Positions 1 to 9,872 of a stretch of 10,263 bases of DNA are shown here, piece after piece (the stretch's first letter is position 1; each line of letters begins with the position of its first letter). Source of the DNA: Verrucomicrobia bacterium GWC2_42_7 (GTDB lineage: Bacteria > Verrucomicrobiota > Verrucomicrobiia > Opitutales > GWC2-42-7-A); contig MIDO01000124.1 in the NCBI GenBank assembly GCA_001831055.1, positions 1 through 10,263 of the forward strand. The letters run 5' to 3'. A program made the position numbers and the translations under genes. The notes under the pieces were generated by a model. It made no database searches. It worked only from the letters and a program-made list of their open reading frames with translations, and was not told the origin of the DNA.

Positions 1-653
1 ATATAGGCGTTAATAGTAAAAAGGAAGCCCTGAAGCTGATTTCTATCGGAGATGCGGCTGTCTATGATCATGATTTTGAAATCATTAATGGAAATATAGC
101 GACCGCACGTGCATTTGACGATAAGATTGGTTCATACGTGATTAGTGAAGTTCTCCGCAGATTAGCGAAAAGTAAAGAAAAGCTAGTCGCAAAGGTGGTA
201 TCCGTATCAACCACACAAGAAGAAATCGGAACCCGTGGCGCAACCACAGCGTGTTATGCAGTTGACCCTCAAATAGGTATAGCCGTTGACGTAGGCCATG
301 CAACCGATTCCCCTGATTGCGAAAAGACAAAATATGGTGACTTTAAATTAGGCGCAGGCCCCATCATTGCCCGAGGCCCAAACATAAATCCCCGTTTATT
401 TGAAGAACTAAAAAAATGTGCGGAAAAGCACGATATTCCTTACCAAATTGAAGCCGAAGCTAGGCCAACAGGTACCGATGCACGCGTTATCCAAATGACA
501 CGTCAAGGCGTTGCGACTGCCCTCGTATCCATCCCCTTACGCTACATGCATACACCTTGCGAGACCCTCAATCTTGAAGATGTCGAAAATACCATTAAGC
601 TCCTCTCTCACTTCATTCTTTCGCTTAAGAAGGAGTCATCTTTCCATTGGTAA
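1..653 (+). CDS. M42 family metallo-aminopeptidase (glutamyl aminopeptidase/endoglucanase-M type), 5'-truncated
   Basis: The reading frame is open from base 3 and gives the C-terminal 216 residues; the start lies before the window. M42 enzymes are cytosolic, di-metal, tetrahedral (TET) aminopeptidases that trim peptides from the N-terminus. Visible in order: AFDDKIG (residues 38-43 of this fragment) with the bridging metal Asp; TTQEEIGTRGA (70-80) with the catalytic Glu and the neighbouring metal Glu; DVGHATDSPD (96-105) with another metal Asp; GAGPIIARGPNINP; EARPTGTDA; and YMHTP (181-185) with the last metal His. All expected metal and catalytic residues in this portion are present, so the enzyme looks intact. 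A GTG at 138 lies inside the conserved region and is not the start. The TAA stop (651-653) abuts a family A repeat. The gene converges on ppx. The family is confident; the exact peptide specificity is not determinable. Confidence 0.93.
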   Translation, partial: IGVNSKKEALKLISIGDAAVYDHDFEIINGNIATARAFDDKIGSYVISEVLRRLAKSKEKLVAKVVSVSTTQEEIGTRGATTACYAVDPQIGIAVDVGHATDSPDCEKTKYGDFKLGAGPIIARGPNINPRLFEELKKCAEKHDIPYQIEAEARPTGTDARVIQMTRQGVATALVSIPLRYMHTPCETLNLEDVENTIKLLSHFILSLKKESSFHW

Positions 654-654
654 C

Positions 655-782
655 AGAAAAACATTATTTCAGTTTTTGAGTTCGTTGGGCAGCGGACTCA
701 CACTCCCTTACGTACGTAATGTACGCTCGGTCGTGTTCACCTTGCCCGCCTGCTCAAAATCCTGAACTAAAGTTTTTCAGGG
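655..782 (+). repeat. Family A palindromic element, copy A1
   Basis: An imperfect palindrome of about 128 bp with the left half first. The outer arm AGAAAAACATTATTTCAG is mirrored by CTGAACTAAAGTTTTTCAG at the far end, followed inward by TTTTTGAG / CTCAAAA. The inner left half reads TTCGTTGGGCAGCGGACTC and the inner right half CACCTTGCCCGCCTGCTC, and the centre is ACGTACGTAATGTACG. The same L-centre-R plan recurs at 5760-6027, 5824-5953 and 6583-6708. It begins one base after the M42 stop codon, so the M42 transcript would end in it. Confidence 0.85.
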
Positions 783-810
783 GGGAGTCTATGTTGGGGG
801 AGCATAAAAC

Positions 811-856
811 TTCACCTCATACGCCTTCTCGAAAGCTTAAACTAACATCTTTCTGA
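811..856 (+). repeat. Solo right half of a family A element
   Basis: The stretch CACCTCATACGCCTTCTCGA, continuing into AAGCTTAAACTAACATCTTTCTGA, matches the right half of family A, best the 5905-5953 arm (CACCTTGCCCGCCTGCTCAA, then AAGCTCAAACTAACCTCTTTCTG). No matching left half is present in front of it. It looks like a decayed or half-deleted copy sitting about 30 bp after A1. Confidence 0.7.
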
Positions 857-910
857 TCACCTGTCTTCTTTTTTAACAGCAATTTCCAAAGTTCATCCAA
901 AAGAAGAACT

Positions 911-1020
911 TTGCGCGGAAGAAAAATTCCTTTCAAAATTTTTCTTCCGCGCAAGTATCTCCTTTTCGGAAGGGGTTCGGGGAAACGCTTTCTGGGTGAC
1001 CAAAAGCAGTTTCCCCGAAA
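911..1020 (+). repeat. Family B two-hairpin element, copy B-911
   Basis: The first hairpin is a perfect 18-bp stem: TTGCGCGGAAGAAAAATT (911-928), an 8-nt loop, then its exact complement (937-954). The linker TCTCCTTTTCGGAAGGGG follows. The second hairpin (976-1019) pairs TTCGGGGAAAC with GTTTCCCCGAA, with an inner GCTTT/AAAGC stem and the loop motif GGGTGACC. It lies between the convergent M42 and ppx genes, 13 bp past the ppx stop, so it could end transcription from both sides. No U-tract is seen, so it is not a textbook intrinsic terminator. Confidence 0.88.
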
Positions 1021-1032
1021 AATTCCCCCCTC

Positions 1033-1980
1033 TTATAATAGACTAGCGGCGAGGCCGAAGCGGAGATTACGTTTGGAAAACAGAATGCGGGAGGTGGATA
1101 GGACATCCATAATGGCAATTATTGTAATCAGTCCTGTTGGGAAGATATCGGCTCTATTTTCTGTGATAGAAAATCTAAAAGCTCTTTCTTTACTAGTAAG
1201 TTGGATGAGGGAAGCGAGGATACTTTGGATATCAGATTTTTCCAAAAATTTTCCAACATTGCCTCTTTCTTGCAAGATGGATTTTAAGGTGGCAATGGTG
1301 CCTCCTGTGGCTACAAGTGGTGATTTTTTAACTATGAAAGGGGAATGTGTGGGTATGACGTTTGTAACATGTTCATAGATAGCGTCCAAGTTGCATTGAT
1401 GGATGGGTTCTTTGTAGTTTTTAATGAATTGTTCTGTCAATCGCACTGCGCCCAAAGGCAAGCTGGTTGTTTGCGTAAATATACCGCCTTCTACTTTAAT
1501 AAATTCTGCGCTTCCTCCTCCGATATCAACGATGGAAAAGTCTTTTAGAGCAGAACATAGGGGGTCCGTTAAAATTCCTCGGGCAATACCTTCAGCTTCT
1601 TCCTTGCCTGAAAGGATTTTTAGAAAAATGCCAAATTTTTTATGAACCATACTCGCAAAGGTACTGCCATTCGCCGCATCGCGTACCGCGCTTGTTGCTA
1701 CAATCTCAATCGTGGAAACCGTATAATTTTCAACAGCTTCTATTAAGGTGCCAATCGCATCCGCTGCCTCTTGCATTTTCTTTTCTGACAAAAAGTAGGG
1801 TTTTTTACAAATACCTTCACCTATTCGATTTTCTATGGCTTTTGTAAAGACGACCTCCAAGTCGTCTATTCCTTTTTTTGCCACCAAAATTTTTATTGTA
1901 TTGCTTCCCACGTCGATGACACCCACGGTCTTAGGTGTGACTTCTTGTTGGCAAGGATACTGTTTTTTGGTGGGTTCCAT
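1033..1980 (-). CDS. ppx: Ppx/GppA-family exopolyphosphatase / pppGpp phosphohydrolase (short form)
   Basis: A 315-residue protein of the ASKHA fold. Members release phosphate from polyphosphate chains and/or convert pppGpp to ppGpp in the cytosol. Visible: the phosphate-1 loop VGVIDVGSNTIKILV (19-33); VATSAVRDAANG (94-105); LSGKEEAEGIARG (123-135), which carries the catalytic Glu position; the phosphate-2 motif VDIGGGSAEF (151-160); SLPLGAVRLTEQF (173-185); and the adenosine/substrate loop LVATGGTIATLKS (222-234). Near the end, ENRADIFPTG matches the usual C-terminal motif of the two-domain form. The protein ends there, so the HD-like third and fourth domains of E. coli Ppx/GppA are absent; this short form is common and looks complete. 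Ppx and GppA cannot be told apart from sequence alone. ATG start at 1980, with no Shine-Dalgarno. Monocistronic by spacing: 198 bp from trmH. Confidence 0.92.
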   Translation of the reverse strand: MEPTKKQYPCQQEVTPKTVGVIDVGSNTIKILVAKKGIDDLEVVFTKAIENRIGEGICKKPYFLSEKKMQEAADAIGTLIEAVENYTVSTIEIVATSAVRDAANGSTFASMVHKKFGIFLKILSGKEEAEGIARGILTDPLCSALKDFSIVDIGGGSAEFIKVEGGIFTQTTSLPLGAVRLTEQFIKNYKEPIHQCNLDAIYEHVTNVIPTHSPFIVKKSPLVATGGTIATLKSILQERGNVGKFLEKSDIQSILASLIQLTSKERAFRFSITENRADIFPTGLITIIAIMDVLSTSRILFSKRNLRFGLAASLL

Positions 1981-2007
1981 TGTGCTTACAAAACCATTTT
2001 AATTAAA

Positions 2008-2098
2008 CGTTGCTCAAGGAAAAACTATTTTCCTCACTATCCGCACCCGCGCAAGAGTAAAAAGGGGAATATTTGGAAGGGGATTTGGAAAAATGATT
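2008..2098 (+). repeat. Probable decayed family B element
   Basis: GTTGCTCAAGGAAAA and TTTTCCTCAC pair partly, followed by CCGCGCAAGAGT, AAAAAGGGG and TTGGAAGGGGATTTGGAAAA. This follows the order of copy B-911 (GCGC arm, CGCGCAAG, linker, GGAAGGGGTT, GGGGAAA) but many positions differ. It lies in the short leader upstream of ppx. The call rests on eye alignment only. Confidence 0.4.
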
Positions 2099-2136
2099 TG
2101 TTATGTGGTAAATTAAATTTCTATTGACGATGCCGG

Positions 2137-2172
2137 ATCCCGTTTCTTTTTCTCCACAAAAAGGAAAGGGAT
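2137..2172 (-). terminator. Hairpin 3' of trmH, possible terminator
   Basis: A 15-bp stem with one mismatch and one wobble (ATCCCGTTTCTTTTT / AAAAAGGAAAGGGAT) around a 6-nt loop, starting 7 bp past the trmH stop codon. Its position suggests a transcript end for trmH. No T-run follows on the minus strand, so termination by itself is uncertain. Confidence 0.45.
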
Positions 2173-2178
2173 GCCTCA

Positions 2179-2859
2179 TCACATCGCATTGTGTTTAAAG
2201 CTTGTGGATTGGAGGAGCCATTCGAATTTCAGTTTATCGTAGTCGTCGGAAGGAAGGGCCCAGGGGATATTTGATGATTTAAGTTTTTGAACAATAGAGT
2301 AGAGGATAATGCCCGTTGTTACGGAAACATTAAGGCTTTGGGAAAATCCGGTCATGGGGACGTACATGTAAAGATCTGAGAGATTATGGGCTTCCTCCGT
2401 CATTCCGATTTTTTCTGTTCCCATCACGATTGCAAGGGGACGGTCTAGCGGTATCTCCGGTAGAGAAATGGCTCCTGGTCGTAGCGTTGTTCCTACAATT
2501 CTATAACCCTTTCTTTTTAAATCAGTTAAGCAATCGATGGTTTGATTGGAGGCCGCGATGGGTTTTTTGGAACTTTTGTTGGGTTTATTTGTCCACCAGT
2601 TAAGCGATAGCCATTTTTCACATCCTATGGCGACACTTGATTTTTCCGGCTGAAACAAGTTACGGTTTTCAACAATGTGAAGATCTTGAATTCCCATACA
2701 GTCGCAAGTTCGCATAATTGCAGCCGCATTATGGGGTTGATAGATATCTTCCAGGACAAGGCTTACATAACGCGTACGTTGAGCCAACACCCCCTCTATC
2801 CTCGATAAGCGTTCCGGTGTGACTATCTTTGATAAATATTCCGTATTTATAGTTTCCAT
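2179..2859 (-). CDS. trmH: tRNA (guanosine-18-2'-O)-methyltransferase TrmH (SpoU family)
   Basis: A 226-residue protein of the SPOUT superfamily, which has a trefoil knot and uses S-adenosylmethionine to 2'-O-methylate a guanosine in RNA. The match to TrmH runs nearly end to end: TPERLSRIEGVLAQR (14-28), VSLVLEDIYQPHNAAAIMRTCD (33-54) with motif 1 Asn and the catalytic Arg, then VMGTEKIGMTEEA (motif 2), then VPMTGFSQSLNVSVTTGIILY (motif 3, knot and cofactor site). The N-terminal PERL..I..VL.QR segment is typical of TrmH rather than of the rRNA enzyme RlmB, which supports the tRNA Gm18 assignment. The C-terminal tail is shorter than in E. coli TrmH. ATG start at 2859; no Shine-Dalgarno, but TACTAT lies just upstream (2863-2868), so the transcript may have almost no leader. 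A family C repeat lies 32 bp upstream of the start. Confidence 0.9.
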   Translation of the reverse strand: METINTEYLSKIVTPERLSRIEGVLAQRTRYVSLVLEDIYQPHNAAAIMRTCDCMGIQDLHIVENRNLFQPEKSSVAIGCEKWLSLNWWTNKPNKSSKKPIAASNQTIDCLTDLKRKGYRIVGTTLRPGAISLPEIPLDRPLAIVMGTEKIGMTEEAHNLSDLYMYVPMTGFSQSLNVSVTTGIILYSIVQKLKSSNIPWALPSDDYDKLKFEWLLQSTSFKHNAM

Positions 2860-2890
2860 AATATAGTAAAATCAGTTTAAGCTGACACAT

Positions 2891-2991
2891 CCGGAAACCT
2901 TTCTTTTTGAGAGAAAAGAAAGGTTTCCGGAACCTTCCAAAGAAAAACTAACGATCGCCTAATCAAAATCTTCTGATTTTGGTTAGGCGAT
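2891..2991 (+). repeat. Family C two-hairpin element, copy C-2891
   Basis: The first hairpin is a perfect 17-bp stem: CCGGAAACCTTTCTTTT (2891-2907), a 6-nt loop, then the exact complement (2914-2930). The linker AACCTTCCAAAGAAAAACTAA follows. The second hairpin pairs ATCGCCTAATCAAAATC (2954-2970) with GATTTTGGTTAGGCGAT (2975-2991), 17 bp with one G-T wobble and a 4-nt loop. The copy at 9414-9514 carries the same parts and linker in the opposite direction. It sits between the trmH start and the accA end. Confidence 0.9.
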
Positions 2992-3092
2992 AGAATGAGT
3001 TCCATCCTTTTGTTGATAATAGCCGTCAAAAGGAACCCAAGCTGTGTCATTATATTTTGAAATAGCTATAGTTCGGATGAGTGGTAGATTCT

Positions 3093-3205
3093 TTTGGGAA
3101 AAACCGCTTTTGGTGGACCAGGAAAGGTTTTCCCCAAAAACCCTTTCCGAAAAGGAGTTACTTGCTCAGCGCTAAAATCCCATACGGAATTTTATTCCTG
3201 CGCAA
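3093..3205 (-). repeat. Family B element, degenerate copy B-3093
   Basis: Read on the plus strand, the GGGGAAA-type hairpin comes first (TTTTGGGAAAAACC / GGTTTTCCCCAAAA, about 3093-3138). The inverted linker CCCTTTCCGAAAAGGAG follows, then a GCGC-type hairpin whose right arm (ATTTTATTCCTGCGCAAG) is kept while the left arm (CTTGCTCAGCGCTAAAAT) has drifted. The order is the reverse of copy B-911, so it is inverted. It lies in the 529-bp gap between trmH and accA. Confidence 0.75.
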
Positions 3206-3254
3206 GGTATTTCGGAACGTTTTTCTAACTCTCGGAATGCGAAATTTTATCTCT

Positions 3255-3352
3255 ATTTTGCGATCGAAATCTGCAAGATTTTGATCGCAAAATCATTCGC
3301 TTTTCTTTAGAAGAGCCCAAGAACCTTTCTTTTCTTGTGAAAAGAAAGGTTC
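3255..3352 (-). repeat. Family C element, diverged copy C-3255
   Basis: ATTTTGCGATCGAAATC (3255-3271) pairs with GATTTTGATCGCAAAAT (3277-3293) with one wobble. After a linker containing CGCTTTTCTTTAGAAGAG, a 14-bp perfect stem GAACCTTTCTTTTC / GAAAAGAAAGGTTC (3321-3334, 3339-3352) follows. The order matches the copy at 9414-9514 and is reversed relative to C-2891. It lies 36 bp past the accA stop codon, so accA transcripts would run into it. Confidence 0.8.
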
Positions 3353-3388
3353 TCGGTTATCTCTTCCTCCACTCTCCAAAATACGACC

Positions 3389-4369
3389 TTATGCGCCAAT
3401 GAGAGATTTTTCCTCAAAGATGCCCATTTTGCGATATTTTTGATAGCGTTTTTCGAGTAAGTCTTCGGTGTTTAGGGAGGATAGCTGTTGAAGATTTCTG
3501 AGGAGGGCCTCTTTGAGGTTGTCGGCAGCCTCTTTGTAATCGAGATGAGCGCCGCCAAAAGGTTCTTTAATTACTTCATCGACAATTCCCATTTCTAGGA
3601 GTTTTTCAGCAGATAAGCGTAATGCTTCGGCTGCTTTTGGGGCGTGTACGCGGTCTTTCCACAAAATAGCAGCACATCCCTCTGGAGAAATGACAGAGTA
3701 ATAGGCATTTTCAAAGATCATCACGATATCGGATACAGCAATCCCCAAAGCACCTCCAGAGCCACCTTCTCCTATAACAACGGCTATAGAAGGGACGCTA
3801 AATTGACTCATTTCTCTTAGATTGACTGCAATGGCTTCTGCGACATGTCGTTGTTCAGAACCGATTCCTGGATAAGCCCCAGGAGTGTCTACGAGTGATA
3901 TGATTGGTAATTTAAACTTTTCCGCCAATCTCATTAATCGGAGGGCTTTTCTATATCCTTCTGGATTAGGGGAGCCAAAATTACGCATCAAATTTTCTTT
4001 AGTGGATCGACCCTTTTGTTGTGCAATCAACATGATCGCCTGGCCATTTAACAAGGCTGTTCCGCCTATAATCGCTTGATCATCTCCAAAGCAGCGATCC
4101 CCGTGCAATTCTTGAAAATCTTCGAAAATTAACTTTATATAATCCAGCGAGTAAGGTCGCTTTGGATGTCTAGCCAATTGGACTTTTTGCCAGACGGTCA
4201 ATTTTTCATAAATTTCCTTCTTTGTCTTTTCTATTTTGGCCTCTATCGATTCTATTTCTGCTGAAACATCCACCTTTGACTCTTGTGAGATTCTACGCAA
4301 CCTCTCTAGTTCCTCAGCTAAGCTTCTTAGTGGTTTTTCAAAATCAAGAAGATATTTTGGAGTCTCCAT
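3389..4369 (-). CDS. accA: Acetyl-CoA carboxylase carboxyltransferase subunit alpha
   Basis: AccA with AccD forms the carboxyltransferase that moves the carboxyl group from biotin on AccB to acetyl-CoA, giving malonyl-CoA, the first committed step of fatty acid synthesis in the cytosol. With the chosen start it has 326 residues, close to the family's usual 319. Visible: an N-terminal helical segment (about 8-60) ending in VQLARHPKRPYSLDYI (63-78); FGDDQAIIGGTALL (94-107); QQKGRSTKENLMRNFGSPNPEGYRKALRLM (117-146); VDTPGAYPGIGSEQRHVAEAI (160-180); IGEGGSGGALGI (199-210), the oxyanion-forming glycine-rich loop; and SVISPEGCAAILW (225-237). ATG 4369 is preferred because family members begin shortly before the FE.P helix; ATG 4381 adds only four residues and overlaps the likely -10 box. 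accD is not in the window. The gene stands alone, with repeats on both sides. Confidence 0.95.
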   Translation of the reverse strand: METPKYLLDFEKPLRSLAEELERLRRISQESKVDVSAEIESIEAKIEKTKKEIYEKLTVWQKVQLARHPKRPYSLDYIKLIFEDFQELHGDRCFGDDQAIIGGTALLNGQAIMLIAQQKGRSTKENLMRNFGSPNPEGYRKALRLMRLAEKFKLPIISLVDTPGAYPGIGSEQRHVAEAIAVNLREMSQFSVPSIAVVIGEGGSGGALGIAVSDIVMIFENAYYSVISPEGCAAILWKDRVHAPKAAEALRLSAEKLLEMGIVDEVIKEPFGGAHLDYKEAADNLKEALLRNLQQLSSLNTEDLLEKRYQKYRKMGIFEEKSLIGA

Positions 4370-4380
4370 ATTCGCTATCA

Positions 4381-4409
4381 TTTACATAACGTTTTTTTTA
4401 ATAAGTCAA
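4381..4409 (-). promoter_or_regulatory. Possible sigma-70-type promoter of accA
   Basis: On the minus strand, TTGACT (4404-4409) and TGTAAA (4381-4386) are 17 bp apart. The -10 box overlaps the first possible ATG (4379-4381), so transcription would begin a few bases before the second ATG (4369), giving a very short or absent leader. The -35 is good and the -10 is only 4/6. Confidence 0.4.
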
Positions 4410-4419
4410 GGTGTATCTT

Positions 4420-4527
4420 GCTAGGGGGAGCCGCTTTTGGTCCCCCAAAAGCGGCTCCCCCTAGCCCCCTCCGAAAAGGAGATCTTTGCGCGGGAATAAA
4501 ATCCATTGGGATTTTATTCCCGCGCAA
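4420..4527 (-). repeat. Family B two-hairpin element, copy B-4420
   Basis: This is the most perfect copy. Hairpin one is an exact 21-bp stem (4420-4440 with 4445-4465) around TCCC; it begins GCTAGGGGGAGCCGC. The inverted linker CCCCTCCGAAAAGGAG follows. Hairpin two is an exact 19-bp stem, TTGCGCGGGAATAAAATCC (4486-4504) with 4509-4527, loop ATTG. The GCGCGG base of the stem is shared with the copy at 911, while the inner stem differs and still pairs perfectly. It is in reverse orientation and sits upstream of the accA promoter. Confidence 0.9.
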
Positions 4528-4606
4528 GAACTTCGTTTCAGTAGGAGCTTAATGAAATACATGAAAAAACAGTGTGTTGCCAGAAAATTGAACCGATATT
4601 TTTCTA

Positions 4607-4650
4607 TTGGGGAAACCCTTTCCTGGGTGACCCAAAGCAGTTTCCCCCAA
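4607..4650 (+). repeat. Family B element, second hairpin only
   Basis: TTGGGGAAAC (4607-4616) pairs with GTTTCCCCCAA (4640-4650). The inner part CCTTTCCTGGGTGACCCAAAG matches the 976-1019 hairpin of copy B-911 closely. The GCGCGG hairpin and linker are missing. It lies 16 bp past the stop codon of the kinase-like gene, where it may mark the transcript end. Confidence 0.75.
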
Positions 4651-4666
4651 ACGGCTGCGCTTTCTT

Positions 4667-5725
4667 TTATCTTTCTGTATAGGAGAGGACTTGGTTTACG
4701 CGATCCAAGATAGATTCGATATAAGCGTGATTGAAGAAGTCGCAATGTTTGGCTTCTTGAAATATTCTTTTTAAGACTTCTGCGTTTAATCCACGTAATT
4801 TTTTTAATGAACTTGGCGGGATTTTGTCCTTTCGTTGGAGGATCAAACGCTCATCGGAGAATGGCCACTGTCTCCACAATGTGCATTGATATAAAACGTA
4901 TTGGAGGGGGTTGTCTCCTTGTATCAAATTTTCAACGGTTAGGGAGGGGAGAACCTTACCAAATGTTTTTTCTATGCTTTCTACGGTGGGATGTTTTATT
5001 GTTTGGACGCTTTCAAACGGGAATTTATCTTGCCTATCGTTTGGAGAAACTAGCTTTTCGTTGTGGTAGACCTCGAGGAAGGGTCTTTCTCCTAGCTGGA
5101 CTTGTTGACGTTTCATGATAGCCCAATTGTCTATTGCGACTAAAATGGGATTTTCATCTTCATCTTTTTGATATTGGGCAATTAAATTTCCTGCATTTGA
5201 GTCCCATTGTCCAAAAATGAAATAAAACAGCTTCAAGTTTACCAAATCGATATTGTTAATTTTTTTGAGAAGCGTTTCAAAATTATTTGAAGAAAGCAAA
5301 TCTACACTGGGTTTGACATAGAGTTGAAGACTACCAATCTTACCTTTTATTTTACGAATAACCGTAGGAGGTATAATCGGAAACCCTAAATGAAGAGAGG
5401 CCTCATAGGCAGCGATTTCTGGATAAGCATCATCCAAAAAATCTGCTGATTCACAAGGTTTGAATACCGCCTTTAGTCCCCCCTTCAACGTGACAACCCA
5501 TACATTTCCCTTAAACCTTGCTTCATACTTCCGTTGGCTAAGGAACATTTTCATATCTTCGATATATTCAATCGGATCTGTTCTTAACCTTTCCAATATA
5601 GACGGGTCATCCACTTGCACTTTTTCTCCAGACTCGGTCAATATATAATTTCCTGCCCAACAAACCTTCCTGTTTGCGAGAAACAAAATTAACATTAATA
5701 AGAAATGGGGTAACTTTCTTTTCAT
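4667..5725 (-). CDS. Exported protein with PI3/4-kinase-like core
   Basis: A 352-residue protein with a probable signal peptide: MKRK, a hydrophobic run from about residue 8 to 17, then a polar stretch ending VCWAG near 25. The core resembles bacterial proteins annotated as phosphatidylinositol 3-/4-kinase-related (PIK/HipA/FAM20-like kinase fold): LKAVFKP (84-90) as a candidate ATP-binding strand and Lys; PEIAAYEASLHLGFPIIPPTVIR (102-124), very close in style to the E-AAY---LG---PPT motif of that group; KIGSLQLYV (129-137); FGQWDSNAGNLI (171-182), like the catalytic loop D-x-x-x-x-N; and VAIDNWAIM (196-204), with a candidate metal Asp199. Substrate is unknown: a lipid, protein or small molecule are all open. 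Export of such a fold suggests an envelope or host-directed role, which is inference. The open frame extends upstream to 5818 but runs into a repeat; ATG 5725 gives the signal peptide and is preferred. No operon partner. Confidence 0.72.
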   Translation of the reverse strand: MKRKLPHFLLMLILFLANRKVCWAGNYILTESGEKVQVDDPSILERLRTDPIEYIEDMKMFLSQRKYEARFKGNVWVVTLKGGLKAVFKPCESADFLDDAYPEIAAYEASLHLGFPIIPPTVIRKIKGKIGSLQLYVKPSVDLLSSNNFETLLKKINNIDLVNLKLFYFIFGQWDSNAGNLIAQYQKDEDENPILVAIDNWAIMKRQQVQLGERPFLEVYHNEKLVSPNDRQDKFPFESVQTIKHPTVESIEKTFGKVLPSLTVENLIQGDNPLQYVLYQCTLWRQWPFSDERLILQRKDKIPPSSLKKLRGLNAEVLKRIFQEAKHCDFFNHAYIESILDRVNQVLSYTER

Positions 5726-5759
5726 GGAATAAGCGTAATATATCGCTCGTCCCTTAGCA

Positions 5760-6027
5760 ATAGAAAAACATGAGTTCAATTTTCGAGTGTGTTGGACTGC
5801 GGACTCACCATCCGTCACGTACTGCAGAAAGAGGTTAGTTTAAGCTTTTGAGTGTGTTGGGCTGCGGATTCGGGCTCAGTCACGTACGTATTGTACGCTT
5901 CCTCGCCCTCACCTTGCCCGCCTGCTCAAAAGCTCAAACTAACCTCTTTCTGCGGCATTATGCAAGGGGGCAAAAGTTCGTATTTACTTTGGCCGGCCTG
6001 CTCGAAAAGTTGAACTGATTTTTTTCT
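5760..6027 (+). repeat. Family A element A3, split by an inserted copy
   Basis: The left half (5760-5822) reads TAGAAAAACATGAGTTCAAT, then TTTCGAGTGTGTTGGACTGC, up to CACGTAC at the centre. A matching right half (about 5978-6027) reads TTCGTATTT, GGCCGGCCTGCTCGAAAAG, TTGAACTGATTTTTTTCTA. The outer arms pair with each other (TAGAAAAACATGAGTTCAA with TTGAACTGATTTTTTTCTA). Between them lie element A2 (5824-5953) and about 24 bp of unrelated sequence. Confidence 0.72.
5824..5953 (+). repeat. Family A palindromic element, copy A2, nested in A3
   Basis: A full copy of 130 bp. The outer arm GCAGAAAGAGGTTAGTTTAA is mirrored by TCAAACTAACCTCTTTCTGC with one mismatch, and continues into GCTTTTGAG / CTCAAAAGC. 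The inner left half is TGTGTTGGGCTGCGGATTC, the inner right half CACCTTGCCCGCCTGCTC, and the centre CACGTACGTATTGTACG. The outer arms differ from those of A1, A3 and A5, yet pair nearly perfectly within this copy. Confidence 0.85.
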
Positions 6028-6058
6028 AAGGTGCTTAAAGAAGATCCTAAAACGTAGT

Positions 6059-6105
6059 CCTCACCTTGCCCGCCTTCTCGAAAAAATGGGCTAATATTTT
6101 TCTGT
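6059..6105 (+). repeat. Solo right half of a family A element
   Basis: CCTCACCTTGCCCGCCTTCTC, followed by GAAAAAATGGGCTAATATTTTTCTG, matches the right half of family A. No left half precedes it. Like the solo half at 811-856, it follows a complete A element by about 30 bp and is preceded by a TAAAAC-containing segment. Confidence 0.68.
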
Positions 6106-6240
6106 AAGCTTTTTTGATTGGGTTAGTGGTGTATTATGGACGTTTTGAGAATAGAGGTAATTGACGGTTTAAACAGGCGCATTGAACAAATTAAAGAATG
6201 AACAACGAGAACAACTAGGAATAGCTATCCATTAACGACT

Positions 6241-6282
6241 GGGGTCTATTGCATTGCGCCTTTGTAAAAAACAATAGACCCC
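6241..6282 (+). repeat. Isolated hairpin GGGGTCTATTG / CAATAGACCCC
   Basis: An exact 11-bp inverted repeat around a 20-nt loop, followed on the plus strand by the T-rich ATTCTATTCTTTT. It matches none of families A to C. It could be a terminator of a lost plus-strand gene, but the long loop makes this weak. Confidence 0.45.
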
Positions 6283-6390
6283 ATTCTATTCTTTTGAAGG
6301 GTATTTTTCAATAGAGGATTTGAAAAATTTCGGCGGTGATGGACATGCTCAATCCCGTCGATTCTCAATCAATTTGACTATACCCCCTTC

Positions 6391-6495
6391 CTGCGCGAAA
6401 GAAAAATTTGAAAAATTTTACTTTCTCGCATTACCTCCTTTTCGGAAAGGGGCTTGGGAAAAACCCATTTTGGGTGACTATGGTTTCTCTGCAGT
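6391..6495 (+). repeat. Family B element, decayed copy B-6391
   Basis: TGCGCGAAAGAAAAATTT and AATTTTACTTTCTCGCA form an imperfect GCGC-type hairpin. The linker CCTCCTTTTCGGAAAGGGG and a worn second hairpin (TTGGGAAAAACCCATTTTGG, GTGACTATGGTTTCTCTG) follow. The order is the same as copy B-911. The second half is the most worn. Confidence 0.7.
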
Positions 6496-6512
6496 TTTTA
6501 GAGGCCTCTAAC

Positions 6513-6582
6513 TTTGCGCGGATATAAGTTCATTGCAGGATTTATTTTATATCCGCGCAAGTGTCTCCTTCCCGAAAAGGGA
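6513..6582 (+). repeat. Family B element, first hairpin and linker only
   Basis: TTGCGCGGATATAA (6514-6527) pairs exactly with TTATATCCGCGCAA (6547-6560), followed by the linker TCTCCTTCCCGAAAAGGGAG. The GGGGAAAC hairpin that should follow is missing, and family A copy A5 begins at this point. Either A5 landed at the linker or the rest was deleted. Confidence 0.75.
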
Positions 6583-6708
6583 GTGAAAAAAACCAGTTCA
6601 AGATTTCGAGAAGGCGGACGAGGTGAACCTGAGGGAGCGTACATGCGTACGTGACCGAATGTGAATCCGATGTCCAACACACTCGAAAATTGAACTCATG
6701 TTTTTCAC
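6583..6708 (-). repeat. Family A palindromic element, copy A5 (inverted)
   Basis: Read on the minus strand it has the left-to-right order of the other copies. The outer arms GTGAAAAAAACCAGTTCAA and TTGAACTCATGTTTTTCAC pair; the inner halves are AGAAGGCGGACGAGGTGAAC and GAATCCGATGTCCAACACAC on the plus strand; the centre is GTACATGCGTACGTGAC. Its outer end overlaps the stop codon (6705-6707) of the debranching enzyme gene. Confidence 0.85.
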
Positions 6709-9140
6709 CTTACCCACAAAGCGCAAGATAATCCCGGGAGTGTGAAGGAGGTGGAATTGAGGGGGATGTTGCAAGAGGGTAGGCCTTGAGGTGAGAACCG
6801 TTCGATGTCAGCTATTTGAGTGAATTGGGTGAGATCGACATCTGGGATGTGGAAGGAAATGGGTTCTTTATGGGGGTTGATCGCGAAAAGCAGTTGCTGG
6901 TTTGTGTGAGTTAAGGAGAAGTCGGCGTTGTAGAGGGTGGCCACAGAGGAAAACCCTTCTTGGTGAAAAAATTTTATATAGTTTGCGGAGGGTAGGGCTT
7001 CGAGGCGGAGGAGCTGGCCGTTGTCTGATCGCCGGAAGCGGATCCATTGGCGGAAATAATCGGCAGTTGAGGGGTAATTTAATGCACGGAAATAGGAAAG
7101 CGCATTTAGGTCGCCTCTTTTATATGTATTGTTTTCGCTTTGTTTAGAACGCAAGAGATCCTGGCCTTCGGCTATCATGGGCATTCCCAGGGACATCATC
7201 AAGGTTGCAATCATGAGGTGGGTTCGACGCCGATCCTGAGCCGTTGGGTTTTCGCCCAAAAAGTTTGGGTTTTCGGTAATTTTATCTATCCAACAGCGGT
7301 CATCGTGCGATTCTGTATAATTTACGCTCTGACAAGGAAAGCGTGCCTGATAGTCTAGGGATCCTCGAAGGAAATAGCGTATGCCTTCCTGATTCCCTTG
7401 TCCGTGTACATATTTTGCTAAAAAGTCACGGTAACCGTCATTCCAAAAAGCGAAGCCGGTCTTTCTCAATGCGGGCCCCATATGACTTCTAAAGCTCCAG
7501 GGTTCTGCTATCAGAATGACATTGGGATTTTCTTTTTTTAGAGCCTTTTCTATATCGAGCAAAACCTCCATCCCCAGCAATTCGGCCAAATCGAATCGAA
7601 ACCCATCCACGTGATACATCCGCATTAGGTTGATGAGGCTATCTATTATCAATCGGCGACACATGGGCGCGTGAGTGCGCAAATCATTTCCGCAACCGCT
7701 CCAATTCATGAGATAGCCGTCGCTGTTGATCTCGAAATAATAGCGTTTATCGATAAAAAGCAAAAAATTGGGTTCGCCGACATGGTTGTATACGACATCT
7801 ACTATGACGGCAATTCCTGCTCTATGAAAGCTTTCTACTAGTTCCTGGAATTCAACAACTTGCGATGCTTTTGATGGATTTTTTGCATAGCTACTCTCTG
7901 GGGAAAAATAATTCGAAGTCATGTAGCCCCAGTGGTATTCTTCCATACAAATGTTGTCAAATTCCTGTATAGGCTGCAATTCTACCGCATTAATTCCCGT
8001 CTCTCGCAGGTAACAATCCTCTGATTGCAACCACTTCGTTAGACCCGAAAATCCCCGACGCTCTTCGGGCGTTAAATCGATGGGGGCATGCGTCAGCAAA
8101 TCCCTTACATGCGCCTCCATGATGACTAAATCATGCCAATGAGGGGGAGTGAAGTCCGAAAAAGGAAACGTTGCCTGTGCCCTATCTATAATAATTCCAG
8201 GACCCTTGCTATCTGCAGCGGCTAATGCGTAGGGATCCAGTATTTGAACGGTTTCGTCGAAAGCACTAAATTTATCCAGATTTTCACCCTTTACGGTATA
8301 ATGATAGTAGTGCCCGTGAAGGTTTTTTAAAAAATCTACCTCCCAAACGCCGTCATCGTCCTGCTGTAATTCAATCTGTTGAACGGTCTTTGCTGGCAAC
8401 TGTGAGTAAATGGAGACAATCACATGGCTTGCTCTAGGCGCAAACAACCTAAAAGTTGTCTTATCTCCATCCACAATGGCTCCCAATTCCTTATCGGACT
8501 TCAATGAGAGCAAAAAGCCGCTATAATCGACAATGCATTCATCACTGGTATTTGGACTGCTCCACAGAATCTTCTCTCCGTGCAGCAACCGAGAAGACGA
8601 TTCCTTTTCAAATGAAAAAACATGATGCCCTGTCCGTAAGGGATTTATGGAAAAATTGCGGATATTGTTTTCACAGAAACTAACGTTGGGCGCATCCCAG
8701 GGCACTTCAAGCCAAACCTTGTTCTCTGTGACAAACTTAAACAAGCTCTTTCCAGTCTTAAAACAAGTACCCGGAGGCAAATGCAATGTGAGCTTAACGT
8801 TCCCATTAATCTTTTCAGGCCTCAATTGCCATTTTTCCTGGCCAATCGCCTTATCCCAACCATTAAAACTGCCCCCCACATAAATTTTCTGCCTATCAAC
8901 GTCGTAATTCTCAAATACCTTTGGAGACAACACAAAAATAATCTCTCCGCCTTGCGTGCAGTAACCAGACAATTCTGCAAACTCAAAGGGCGACAGTTTT
9001 TTTATTTTCCGCAACGGATTATCCAAGTTATTTAAAAATAAAGGCGGCTGCCGAGTCTTTAAAAACCAGTCCTGATCAAGCTCCACCACCCCCTCGTACC
9101 GCGTTCGCCAATACGCCTTCAATAACTTGTGCTCCTCCAT
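6705..9140 (-). CDS. GH13 alpha-1,6-glucan debranching enzyme (pullulanase/isoamylase-like) with two N-terminal glucan-binding-type domains
   Basis: An 811-residue protein that should hydrolyse alpha-1,6 branch points in glycogen or related glucans. Layout: a CBM48/AMPK-like segment around 68-150 (KIYVGGSFNGWD at 86-97); a second CBM48 E-set domain about 218-283 (TTFRLFAPRASHVIVSIY at 228-245); then the GH13 barrel with region I DVVYNH (448-453), region II GFRFDLAE (513-520, nucleophile Asp517), region III IAEPW (544-548, acid/base Glu546) and region IV ESHDD (610-614); then NNTYKRGDLNALSYFR (670-685), typical of debranching enzymes; and a C-terminal beta domain from about 710. All catalytic residues are present. 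No signal peptide is seen, so it is probably cytosolic and acts on stored glycogen. The open frame can be extended to a TTG at 9176; ATG 9140 is preferred. The TGA stop lies in the end of a family A repeat. Pullulanase and GlgX-type roles cannot be separated here. Confidence 0.9.
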   Translation of the reverse strand: MEEHKLLKAYWRTRYEGVVELDQDWFLKTRQPPLFLNNLDNPLRKIKKLSPFEFAELSGYCTQGGEIIFVLSPKVFENYDVDRQKIYVGGSFNGWDKAIGQEKWQLRPEKINGNVKLTLHLPPGTCFKTGKSLFKFVTENKVWLEVPWDAPNVSFCENNIRNFSINPLRTGHHVFSFEKESSSRLLHGEKILWSSPNTSDECIVDYSGFLLSLKSDKELGAIVDGDKTTFRLFAPRASHVIVSIYSQLPAKTVQQIELQQDDDGVWEVDFLKNLHGHYYHYTVKGENLDKFSAFDETVQILDPYALAAADSKGPGIIIDRAQATFPFSDFTPPHWHDLVIMEAHVRDLLTHAPIDLTPEERRGFSGLTKWLQSEDCYLRETGINAVELQPIQEFDNICMEEYHWGYMTSNYFSPESSYAKNPSKASQVVEFQELVESFHRAGIAVIVDVVYNHVGEPNFLLFIDKRYYFEINSDGYLMNWSGCGNDLRTHAPMCRRLIIDSLINLMRMYHVDGFRFDLAELLGMEVLLDIEKALKKENPNVILIAEPWSFRSHMGPALRKTGFAFWNDGYRDFLAKYVHGQGNQEGIRYFLRGSLDYQARFPCQSVNYTESHDDRCWIDKITENPNFLGENPTAQDRRRTHLMIATLMMSLGMPMIAEGQDLLRSKQSENNTYKRGDLNALSYFRALNYPSTADYFRQWIRFRRSDNGQLLRLEALPSANYIKFFHQEGFSSVATLYNADFSLTHTNQQLLFAINPHKEPISFHIPDVDLTQFTQIADIERFSPQGLPSCNIPLNSTSFTLPGLSCALWVR

Positions 9141-9196
9141 GCCCACTATTTTCCCAAAATTTATGAAATTTATCAAGCTGGGAATGTTTAAAAACT

Positions 9197-9306
9197 CCGG
9201 GGAAACTGCTTTTGGTCACCCAAAAGCGTTTCCCCGGACCCCTTCCGAAAAGGAATTATTTTGCGCGGAAAGGATAATTCCATTCGGAATTTCCTTTCCG
9301 CGCAAA
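9197..9306 (-). repeat. Family B two-hairpin element, copy B-9197
   Basis: CCGGGGAAAC (9197-9206) pairs with GTTTCCCCGG (9228-9237), with an inner TGCTTTTGG / CCAAAAGC stem. The inverted linker CCCCTTCCGAAAAGGAA follows. The second hairpin pairs TTTTGCGCGGAAAGG with CCTTTCCGCGCAAAA and, further in, AATTCC with GGAATT (about 9259-9306), loop ATTC. It is in reverse orientation and lies about 57 bp upstream of the debranching gene start, between that gene and the small + strand gene. Confidence 0.88.
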
Positions 9307-9360
9307 ATTTCTTTTCATGATGGGTTTTAGGGAATCTATTAAAATAGAAAGAATGTTTTT

Positions 9361-9389
9361 TTGACAAGACTTTCCTTAAAGTGTATATT
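9361..9389 (+). promoter_or_regulatory. Near-consensus sigma-70 promoter of the 73-residue gene
   Basis: TTGACA (9361-9366) and TATATT (9384-9389) are separated by exactly 17 bp, the best promoter match seen in the window. Transcription should start near 9396, about 140 bp before the ATG at 9535, so the leader would carry a complete family C element. Confidence 0.72.
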
Positions 9390-9413
9390 TTACCTATTAC
9401 GGCCCATAAATCT

Positions 9414-9514
9414 ATCGCCTTATCAAAATCGCAAGATTTTGATAAGGCGATCATTAGTTTTTCTTTGGAAGGTTCCGGAAACCTTTCTTTTCCCTTAAAA
9501 AGAAAGGTTTCCGG
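9414..9514 (-). repeat. Family C two-hairpin element, copy C-9414
   Basis: ATCGCCTTATCAAAATC (9414-9430) pairs exactly with 9435-9451 around GCAA. The linker TTAGTTTTTCTTTGGAAGGTT follows. CCGGAAACCTTTCTTTT (9475-9491) then pairs exactly with 9498-9514. Both stems are perfect 17-mers. The CCGGAAACC stem and the linker are nearly identical to C-2891 in reverse, while the ATCGCC stem differs by a paired change (TAATC / GGTTA there, TTATC / GATAA here). Confidence 0.9.
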
Positions 9515-9534
9515 AAAAACACCCCTCAAAAAGT

Positions 9535-9756
9535 ATGGAGAATTTTTTAAAAAACAGGACGAAGATCGACAAGGACAATTTGCCGCAGAAGGCAGAAACG
9601 ACTGTCCAAAAGATTTCATTAGACAAGCCCATCTTGATTGAAGAGCCCAAACAGGATGAGCCCAAAGTAGAGGTCATCTCGCAGGATGGCGTCGTCAAAA
9701 AAATCCTAATTACTTGCACCTGTGGGCAGAAAATAGAACTGCAATGTAATTATTAA
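9535..9756 (+). CDS. Small protein of unknown function with C-terminal Cys cluster
   Basis: A 73-residue protein that I do not recognise as a named family. The first 50 residues are polar and charged, rich in Lys, Glu, Asp, Gln and Pro (for example IEEPKQDEPKVEV), and are probably unstructured. The last 18 residues, KKILITCTCGQKIELQCNY, form two short strands carrying C-x-C-G and a later Cys (Cys62, Cys64, Cys71), like half of a zinc ribbon; three Cys could bind metal with a further ligand or by dimerisation. No signal peptide or membrane segment. The gene is supported by a strong promoter (9361-9389), a sensible protein composition and a position free of other genes. There is no Shine-Dalgarno before ATG 9535. 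It converges on recN. Confidence 0.7.
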   Translation: MENFLKNRTKIDKDNLPQKAETTVQKISLDKPILIEEPKQDEPKVEVISQDGVVKKILITCTCGQKIELQCNY

Positions 9757-9772
9757 GCAGGAGAGTGAAAAT

Positions 9773-9872
9773 TTTGGGGAAACGGTGCTGACAGCAGTCC
9801 CTAGCAGAATCTCCTTTTCGGAAAGGGGATTGGGGAAAACGCTTTTAAGCGATTAAAAGCCGTTTTCCCCAA
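9773..9872 (+). repeat. Family B element, partial copy B-9773
   Basis: The linker CTCCTTTTCGGAAAGGGGAT is intact and is followed by hairpin TTGGGGAAAAC (9830-9840) / GTTTTCCCCAA (9862-9872), with inner GCTTTTAA / TTAAAAGC. The part before the linker (GGGGAAACGGTGCTGACAGC and on) does not form the GCGCGG hairpin and is rearranged. It fills the gap between the convergent small gene and recN and could serve as a two-way transcript end. Confidence 0.75.

Follow-up and report, generated by a model that had tools for sequence, protein, structure and literature searches.

The intergenic DNA of contig MIDO01000124.1 (C124) of Verrucomicrobia bacterium GWC2_42_7, a stretch of 10,263 nucleotides that was analyzed as a whole and is called the window here, is crowded with palindromic repeats of three kinds, designated A, B, and C. 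These repeats very probably reflect an expansion of miniature inverted-repeat transposable elements (MITEs), which tend to have one particular end, that of the P hairpin, towards the edges of genes. The observation is real and more than local: the covariance models built from aligned copies (R3 for A, 25 copies; R2 for B, 21; R1 for C, 29) each gave at least 150 matches in the 1.30-Mb assembly, with R1 and R2 possibly sharing some of their places, and not just the few copies of the window. A MITE expansion is of a kind already known, its nearest relatives being RUP, with IS630-Spn1, and ERIC. New to our knowledge are the host phylum of an ERIC-like repeat, a double-hairpin superfamily together with an IS630-type partner, and the polarity of the elements at gene edges.

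Abundance and intergenic placement

The draft assembly consists of 1,296,502 bases in 133 contigs and is 64% complete. Copies were counted in two contig samples, neither of them random, which together cover 457 kb: the first is the window plus 20 contigs taken from the repeat hit lists (274,116 bp; biased high in copies), and the second is 20 contigs largely absent from those lists (183,094 bp; biased low in copies). Matches to B and C were excluded below ~49 bits in either sample, and those to A below 35 bits (first) or 70 bits (second). On this basis, the first sample contained 227 distinct elements (56 A, 90 B, and 81 C), covering 25% of its intergenic DNA, and the second contained 33 (5 A, 9 B, and 19 C). 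The copy density is uneven between contigs, and 10 of the 20 contigs of the second sample carry no copy above these cut-offs. Our guess for the total in the assembled sequence, extrapolated rather than counted, is 600-700 copies.

Genes were called with our own hexamer-based caller, in which stops are exact and starts are estimated, and which misses short genes (e.g., the open reading frame [ORF] at 9535-9756 of the window). An earlier note, made from the letters of the window, had proposed that small, structured, non-autonomous elements which avoid genes have expanded genome-wide, and the counts bear this out: 253 of the 260 distinct copies in the two samples are outside the gene calls (221-222 of 227 in the first sample, where the coding fraction is 65%, and 32 of 33 in the second, where it is 69%). 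An element is present in 104/124 of the gaps of at least 200 bp in the first sample and in 23/50 of those in the second, while none is found in shorter gaps (0/23 and 0/31, respectively). In four of the contigs (L345, L347, L349, and L352, corresponding to C31, C39, C60, and C92), unlike the copy-rich ones, gaps are short (median 14-76 nt) and no copy reaches the cut-offs; either operons are compact there or the regions of the genome truly differ.

The hairpins of all three families are accompanied by compensating base changes. Double-covariant cells numbered 48 for C (11.0 in shuffles), 77 for B (23.1), and 74 for A (22.8), with the reservation that the structures were predicted from the same alignments as were tested and that kinship among copies inflates the number of independent events; the counts dropped for each family once the pairing partners were slid. 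The outer stem of C switches blockwise, for example from CGCC to TTGG with the matching change in the other arm. Because the arms are maintained by compensating changes, the folded form appears to matter, either for movement or for the host.

The window itself holds 12 full or nearly full copies (3 A, 6 B, and 3 C; covariance models, overlaps resolved) with E-values from 3e-12 to 4e-30, and at least six additional part-copies that were recognized by direct-repeat analysis and by eye. A chance origin of the matches is excluded by these E-values together with the absence of any B-model match from 129 of 132 genomes of the order. The earlier note had counted at least 17 copies or part-copies, none in a coding region and at least one in nearly every gap longer than 100 bp. 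The count agrees with ours, the copies lie where it had placed them, none of the 12 full copies is inside a gene (two A copies overlap stop codons, by 1 and 5 nt), and the single element-free gap of that length is 1981-2178. Rfam gave no match at the gathering score across the window, and no match was found in public collections when A and C were compared with plasmids and B with phages. Families B and C share a build of P hairpin, linker with CCTTCC(G/A)AA, and D hairpin, and the features of the window are as follows.

653..781, plus strand: family A (ERIC-like), R3 128.2 bits; left end at the aminopeptidase stop codon
805..853, plus strand: right-half copy of family A, direct repeat family D2
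911..1017, minus strand: family B double hairpin, R2 108.8 bits; P hairpin 15 nt from the exopolyphosphatase-like stop (1033)
2890..2991, minus strand: family C double hairpin, R1 122.1 bits; P hairpin 30 nt upstream of the trmH-like start (2859)
About 79 nt beyond the D hairpin of the C copy at 2890..2991: possible distal end of that copy, reading TATAGC...
3094..3205, plus strand: family B, diverged, between two C copies, R2 48.9 bits
3255..3357, plus strand: family C, R1 90.3 bits; P hairpin 31 nt from the accA stop (3389)
4423..4527, plus strand: family B, R2 105.7 bits; P hairpin 41 nt upstream of the accA start (4381)
4607..4651, no strand assigned: lone P hairpin, a B part-copy, direct repeat family D1; ~15 nt from the stop at 4667
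5762..5822, plus strand: left-half copy of family A adjoining the full copy at 5824, direct repeat D3, 76% over 62 nt
5824..5953, plus strand: family A (ERIC-like), full copy, R3 138.2 bits
5978-6026 and 6054-6102, plus strand: two right-half copies of family A, direct repeat family D2
6363..6382, minus strand: TATAG-type terminal inverted repeat of the C/IS630 group, pattern match with 0 mismatches
6391..6491, minus strand: family B, diverged, R2 54.5 bits
6514..6582, no strand assigned: B part-copy (D hairpin and linker), direct repeat D4; weak R2 match at 6514-6608, 31.7 bits
6582..6709, minus strand: family A, R3 119.4 bits; left end overlaps the debranching-enzyme stop (6705) by 5 nt
9198..9305, plus strand: family B, R2 103.1 bits; P hairpin 57 nt upstream of the debranching-enzyme start (own gene call)
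9414..9515, plus strand: family C, R1 124.8 bits; P hairpin 19 nt upstream of the ORF at 9535-9756
9772..9870, minus strand: family B, R2 53.1 bits; P hairpin 14 nt from the recN stop (9885)

Between the B copy at 9198-9305 and the C copy at 9414-9515, the sequence TTGACA, 17 nt, TATATT is present at 9361-9389. We take this motif to be a near-perfect sigma-70-like promoter, in which case the C copy would sit in the leader of the ORF at 9535-9756.

Family relationships and mobility

The mobile nature of these repeats is clearest for C187, a group of family C. The first sample has eleven full copies of 186-187 bp with 90-98% identity; they end in 20-bp terminal inverted repeats (TIRs) starting TATAGT..., and their conservation stops at TATA in an extended alignment. 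A pattern for the C187-type end matched 197 sites in the genome, while the reversed control matched 1. Empty sites were sought by removing a copy together with one TA, joining the flanks, and looking elsewhere for an uninterrupted match. Among the 15 copies examined, 7 had no spanning match and 8 had one, but two of these 8 matched their own region best and were not used. The other six filled/empty comparisons comprised three that were gap-free at the junction and three weaker ones, and five of the six scored best with exactly one TA. The clean cases are L235 3591-3777 against L220 526-637 (91%), L229 8553-8739 against L222 9436-9547 (94%), and L220 3636-3822 against L220 6050-6160 (91%), and the uninterrupted copy shows TA in two of these three. 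Some C187 insertions occupy the P-hairpin loop of another element. Judging from its ends and its empty sites, C187 is a clear MITE, that is, a proper mobile element with TA as its target.

The DDE_3 domain (PF13358) was found once in the assembly, on contig C18. The IS630-type unit (L335:446-1378, 933 bp) has ends that match those of C187: in the comparison with one C187 copy, the P-end agrees with the left end of the unit at 18/20 positions and the D-end with the right end at 19/20. Pieces of PF01710 (HTH_Tnp_IS630) and PF13358 are in separate open frames of this unit. An IS630-type partner is thus supplied for a double-hairpin MITE, a link that has been called indirect even for RUP. The TATAG ends of the remaining C subtypes are different, in one case TATAGCATAAGACATTAAAG-like on both sides (read by eye), and these differing ends suggest more, unseen partners. 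Adjoining both the IS630-type unit and an A copy is a FliP-family gene (L335:1499-2155; PF00813, E 5e-71), which belongs either to flagellar or to type III export.

Correia/NEMIS repeats begin with TATAG. A terminal TA is given for these repeats of Neisseria in the relevant passages of PMC2229807, and they are similar by description to the present elements, which are marked by the double-hairpin interior and the IS630-type partner. The RUP element of Streptococcus pneumoniae is described there as 107 bp long and present in ~100 copies, and its mobilization by IS630-Spn1 has been proposed (PMC2229807). By description, RUP and C187 are both small, non-coding, and intergenic, with high copy number, a TA target, and ends like those of a resident IS630 element. 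C187 differs from RUP in carrying a conserved linker and two stable hairpins, in the existence of several subtypes whose ends differ, and in its polarity at gene edges.

Families B and C, judging from model matches, probably form a single double-hairpin superfamily, the one family being the other in reverse orientation. Coordinates occupied by B copies are also matched by the C model, on the other strand; in the window, a C-model match at 4422-4526 (46 bits) lies beneath the B copy at 4423-4527, and at L235 7593-7693 the C model scores 60 bits beneath a B copy of 93.5 bits. Because of these matches the element types would be two rather than the three unrelated ones of the earlier note. The B model has matches in 3 of the 132 genomes of the order, namely the host, G012, and G022, each from a different family, which indicates that hairpin shape alone is insufficient for a match. 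G012 and G022 match the C model too, and 32 of 35 relatives are silent. Mitochondrial double-hairpin elements are also adjacent stem-loop pairs dispersed in a genome. For these elements, and for the Pae-1 and Efa-1 double-hairpin families, which resemble B and C by description in their paired stem-loops, we know of no transposon partner or polarity. Pae-1 and Efa-1 are presented as genome-dispersed pairs of adjacent stem-loops in the part of PMC2267715 that deals with them.

Family A, for which the earlier note recognized no named family, is ERIC-like and probably a relative of ERIC, judging from its alignment with a repeat of Escherichia coli. Among 5,426 E. coli genomes, the A consensus matched 767 at one place each (E up to 10); the 20 matches listed have an E-value of 4, are individually non-significant, and involve the same central 46 nt, and the match in K-12 is situated between hsdR and hsdM. 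The 129-bp intergenic repeat situated there occurs at 3-20 places (median 13) per genome in 5,375 of these 5,426 genomes. R3 matches this repeat across model positions 1-128 (50.1 bits, E 2e-11, 848 bases searched), the local alignment score is 47 against a maximum of 28 in 2,000 shuffles, and 85 of the 140 columns of the global alignment are identical. The 129-bp repeat is probably ERIC, a name that does not come from an annotation. Its copy number fits ERIC as far as the passages on ERIC in PMC2229807, PMC10969869, and PMC2267715 describe it.

ERIC, or IRU, is characterized in the corresponding parts of PMC2229807 and PMC10969869 as a 127-bp element of Enterobacteriaceae and Vibrionaceae with a terminal TA. 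Family A resembles it in length, in being one long imperfect palindrome, in its intergenic placement, and in the shared central core GTCACGTAC...GTACGCTCCC. Unlike ERIC, it resides in Verrucomicrobiota, has nested half-copies, and often has its left end at gene edges, mostly stops. We term it ERIC-like rather than ERIC because the host is outside Enterobacteriaceae and Vibrionaceae and because a terminal TA was not seen at the ends of the A alignment, which were set by the alignment and not by an empty site. Weaker A matches are present in nine further genomes of the order (10 of 132 including the host), and no report of ERIC in Verrucomicrobiota was found in open-licence papers. ERIC-like repeats would thus extend from Gammaproteobacteria to another phylum, beside a second, larger MITE superfamily. 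The window contains a nested A composite at 5762-6102, which consists of a left half, a full copy, a short spacer, and right halves, and half-copies likewise flank several other A copies.

Polarity at gene edges

In the first sample, a gene edge was within 80 nt of the P side of the core in 63/86 B copies and 46/80 C copies, while the D side gave 0/86 and 0/74, zeros that are partly an artefact of off-centre core coordinates (the D tail is 39-79 nt and the P tail 27-31 nt). For A, the corresponding counts were 28/53 on the left and 1/53 on the right. The polarity persists after correction for the offsets, which was made for C only, with offsets per subtype taken from few copies: among the C copies that could be assigned to a subtype (66 of 81; the 15 classed as 'other' were dropped, and the subtype grouping excluded copies shorter than 86 nt), the P-end was within 40 nt of a gene edge in 39/66 (21 stops and 18 starts) and the D-end in 0/60. 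Relative to the start or stop codon, 35 of these 39 close P-ends fall within the range from -17 to +8. For C187, the counts within 40 nt were 9/18 for the P-end and 0/14 for the D-end.

The second sample gave 15/25 (P) and 1/27 (D) for B and C together within 80 nt of the core; for A, 2/5 (left) and 1/4 (right) leave the polarity unclear, the sample being too small. Weaker polarity, again by core coordinates and mostly at stops, was seen in G012 (P 11/13 and D 5/12, with one copy inside a called gene) and in G022 (P 13/17 and D 4/16). In the window it is visible at both edges of accA, at the trmH start, and at the recN stop. Gaps with two elements are mostly bracketed, each element having its P hairpin outward to the neighbouring gene. 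When compared by eye with the products of their frequencies, the family at the left of a gap seems to combine freely with that at the right, and for this reason we dropped the idea that such a pair represents both ends of a single larger transposon. In one C subtype, that with the TTTGCGCGAACAAAAA hairpin, the estimated P-end is within 4 nt of a stop codon in all five first-sample copies.

We know of no explanation for this polarity, and it bears on the old question of whether selection merely puts up with the intergenic palindromes of bacteria as junk or makes use of them. In the MITE expansion that we favour, an intact IS630-type transposase would have mobilized C187, and related transposases would have mobilized the other C subtypes with their own TATAG ends; B may be an older branch of the double-hairpin superfamily, and A may be an ERIC-like MITE. 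Insertions in genes would have been lost, and insertions at gene edges would have been preferentially kept with the P-hairpin end facing the gene, because a D-hairpin end at the edge would harm transcription or translation.

Several points weigh against this scheme. The ends, the target site, and the transposon match are established for C187 only, the frame of the IS630-type transposase is broken, extended alignments of B revealed no shared ends, so that B lacks defined ones, and no mobilizer for A was found in this genome. In the third clean comparison (L220 3636-3822), the uninterrupted copy has TG and not TA, and L217 scores marginally better without the TA. The empty sites are all within other repeats, and the related genomes searched all belong to families other than that of the host, so no orthologous empty site is available. 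Finally, a plain MITE model does not predict polarity, since elements that target TA should insert both ways.

A less probable but serious competitor is that the copies are domesticated gene-boundary elements, which cap gene edges as mRNA stabilizers, terminators, or insulators and are held by selection with P beside the coding sequence. The polarity at both starts and stops, with its recurrence in the second sample and more weakly in G012 and G022, speaks for this, as do the recurrence of the architecture in these two genomes of other families and the free mixing of families within a gap, as if gene edges were independent. A T-rich stretch of terminator-like appearance lies beyond the D hairpin of B (at least 6 T in 12 nt in 36/60 copies; background 20/111). 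In C, however, this stretch is placed oppositely (beyond D in 5/51 copies, on the gene side of P in 26/51), so a single outward-terminator rule, which fits B, fails for C, and one rule cannot cover both families. Moreover, since the polarity in DNA is the same at starts as at stops, the RNA strands would be opposite, which is unexpected for a function in RNA; many genes do without such elements, as the 10 copy-free contigs of the second sample indicate, and young C187 copies also occur well away from genes.

It is conceivable, though we regard it as rather doubtful, that the repeats are a punctuation system, in which double-hairpin MITEs are placed or kept with one hairpin bordering starts and stops in any direction of transcription and so mark gene edges in the DNA. 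This idea rests on the 104/124 larger gaps that are filled and on the two-element gaps that are mostly bracketed with P to the gene.

Somewhat less likely still is orientation-specific insertion, in which the transposition machinery itself would set the P-end towards the gene edge and selection would be unneeded. C187, the youngest group, is already polar, and the narrow range of the close P-ends could be accommodated, as TA occurs in stop codons and in TATG. On the other side, C187 insertions lie within other repeats too, and no IS630-type element is known to us that senses gene edges, which counts against such a mechanism.

REP/BIME-type palindromes moved by a Y1 (RAYT) transposase are similar in being high-copy intergenic hairpins, often 3' of genes and frequently in composite arrangements. 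REPs have neither TIRs nor a TA target, however, and C187 possesses both; PF01797 was not found in this 64%-complete assembly, while the same search was positive in 5 of 14 control genomes, so we consider this origin very improbable. That a chimeric or contaminated bin produced the repeat density, as the strongly different copy density between contigs might suggest, is scarcely credible given a listed contamination of 0.06%, a GC content that is alike in both samples (0.39-0.46), a choice of contigs that was biased in opposite ways, and the presence of related elements in two further genomes of the order.

Genes of the window

By NCBIfam, the genes of the window encode M42 aminopeptidase-, exopolyphosphatase-, TrmH-, AccA-, pullulanase/debranching-enzyme-, and RecN-like proteins plus one without assignment, and AccA alone passes a curated cut-off. 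In protein comparisons, AccA and the debranching enzyme both have their named close relatives in Verrucomicrobiota, class Opitutia, and the AccA relatives in genome contigs show 69% identity or less. The gene at 4667-5695 encodes a 342-amino-acid protein without a Pfam match at E 0.01, and a longer reading of this protein gives a weak NCBIfam match to TIGR03843.

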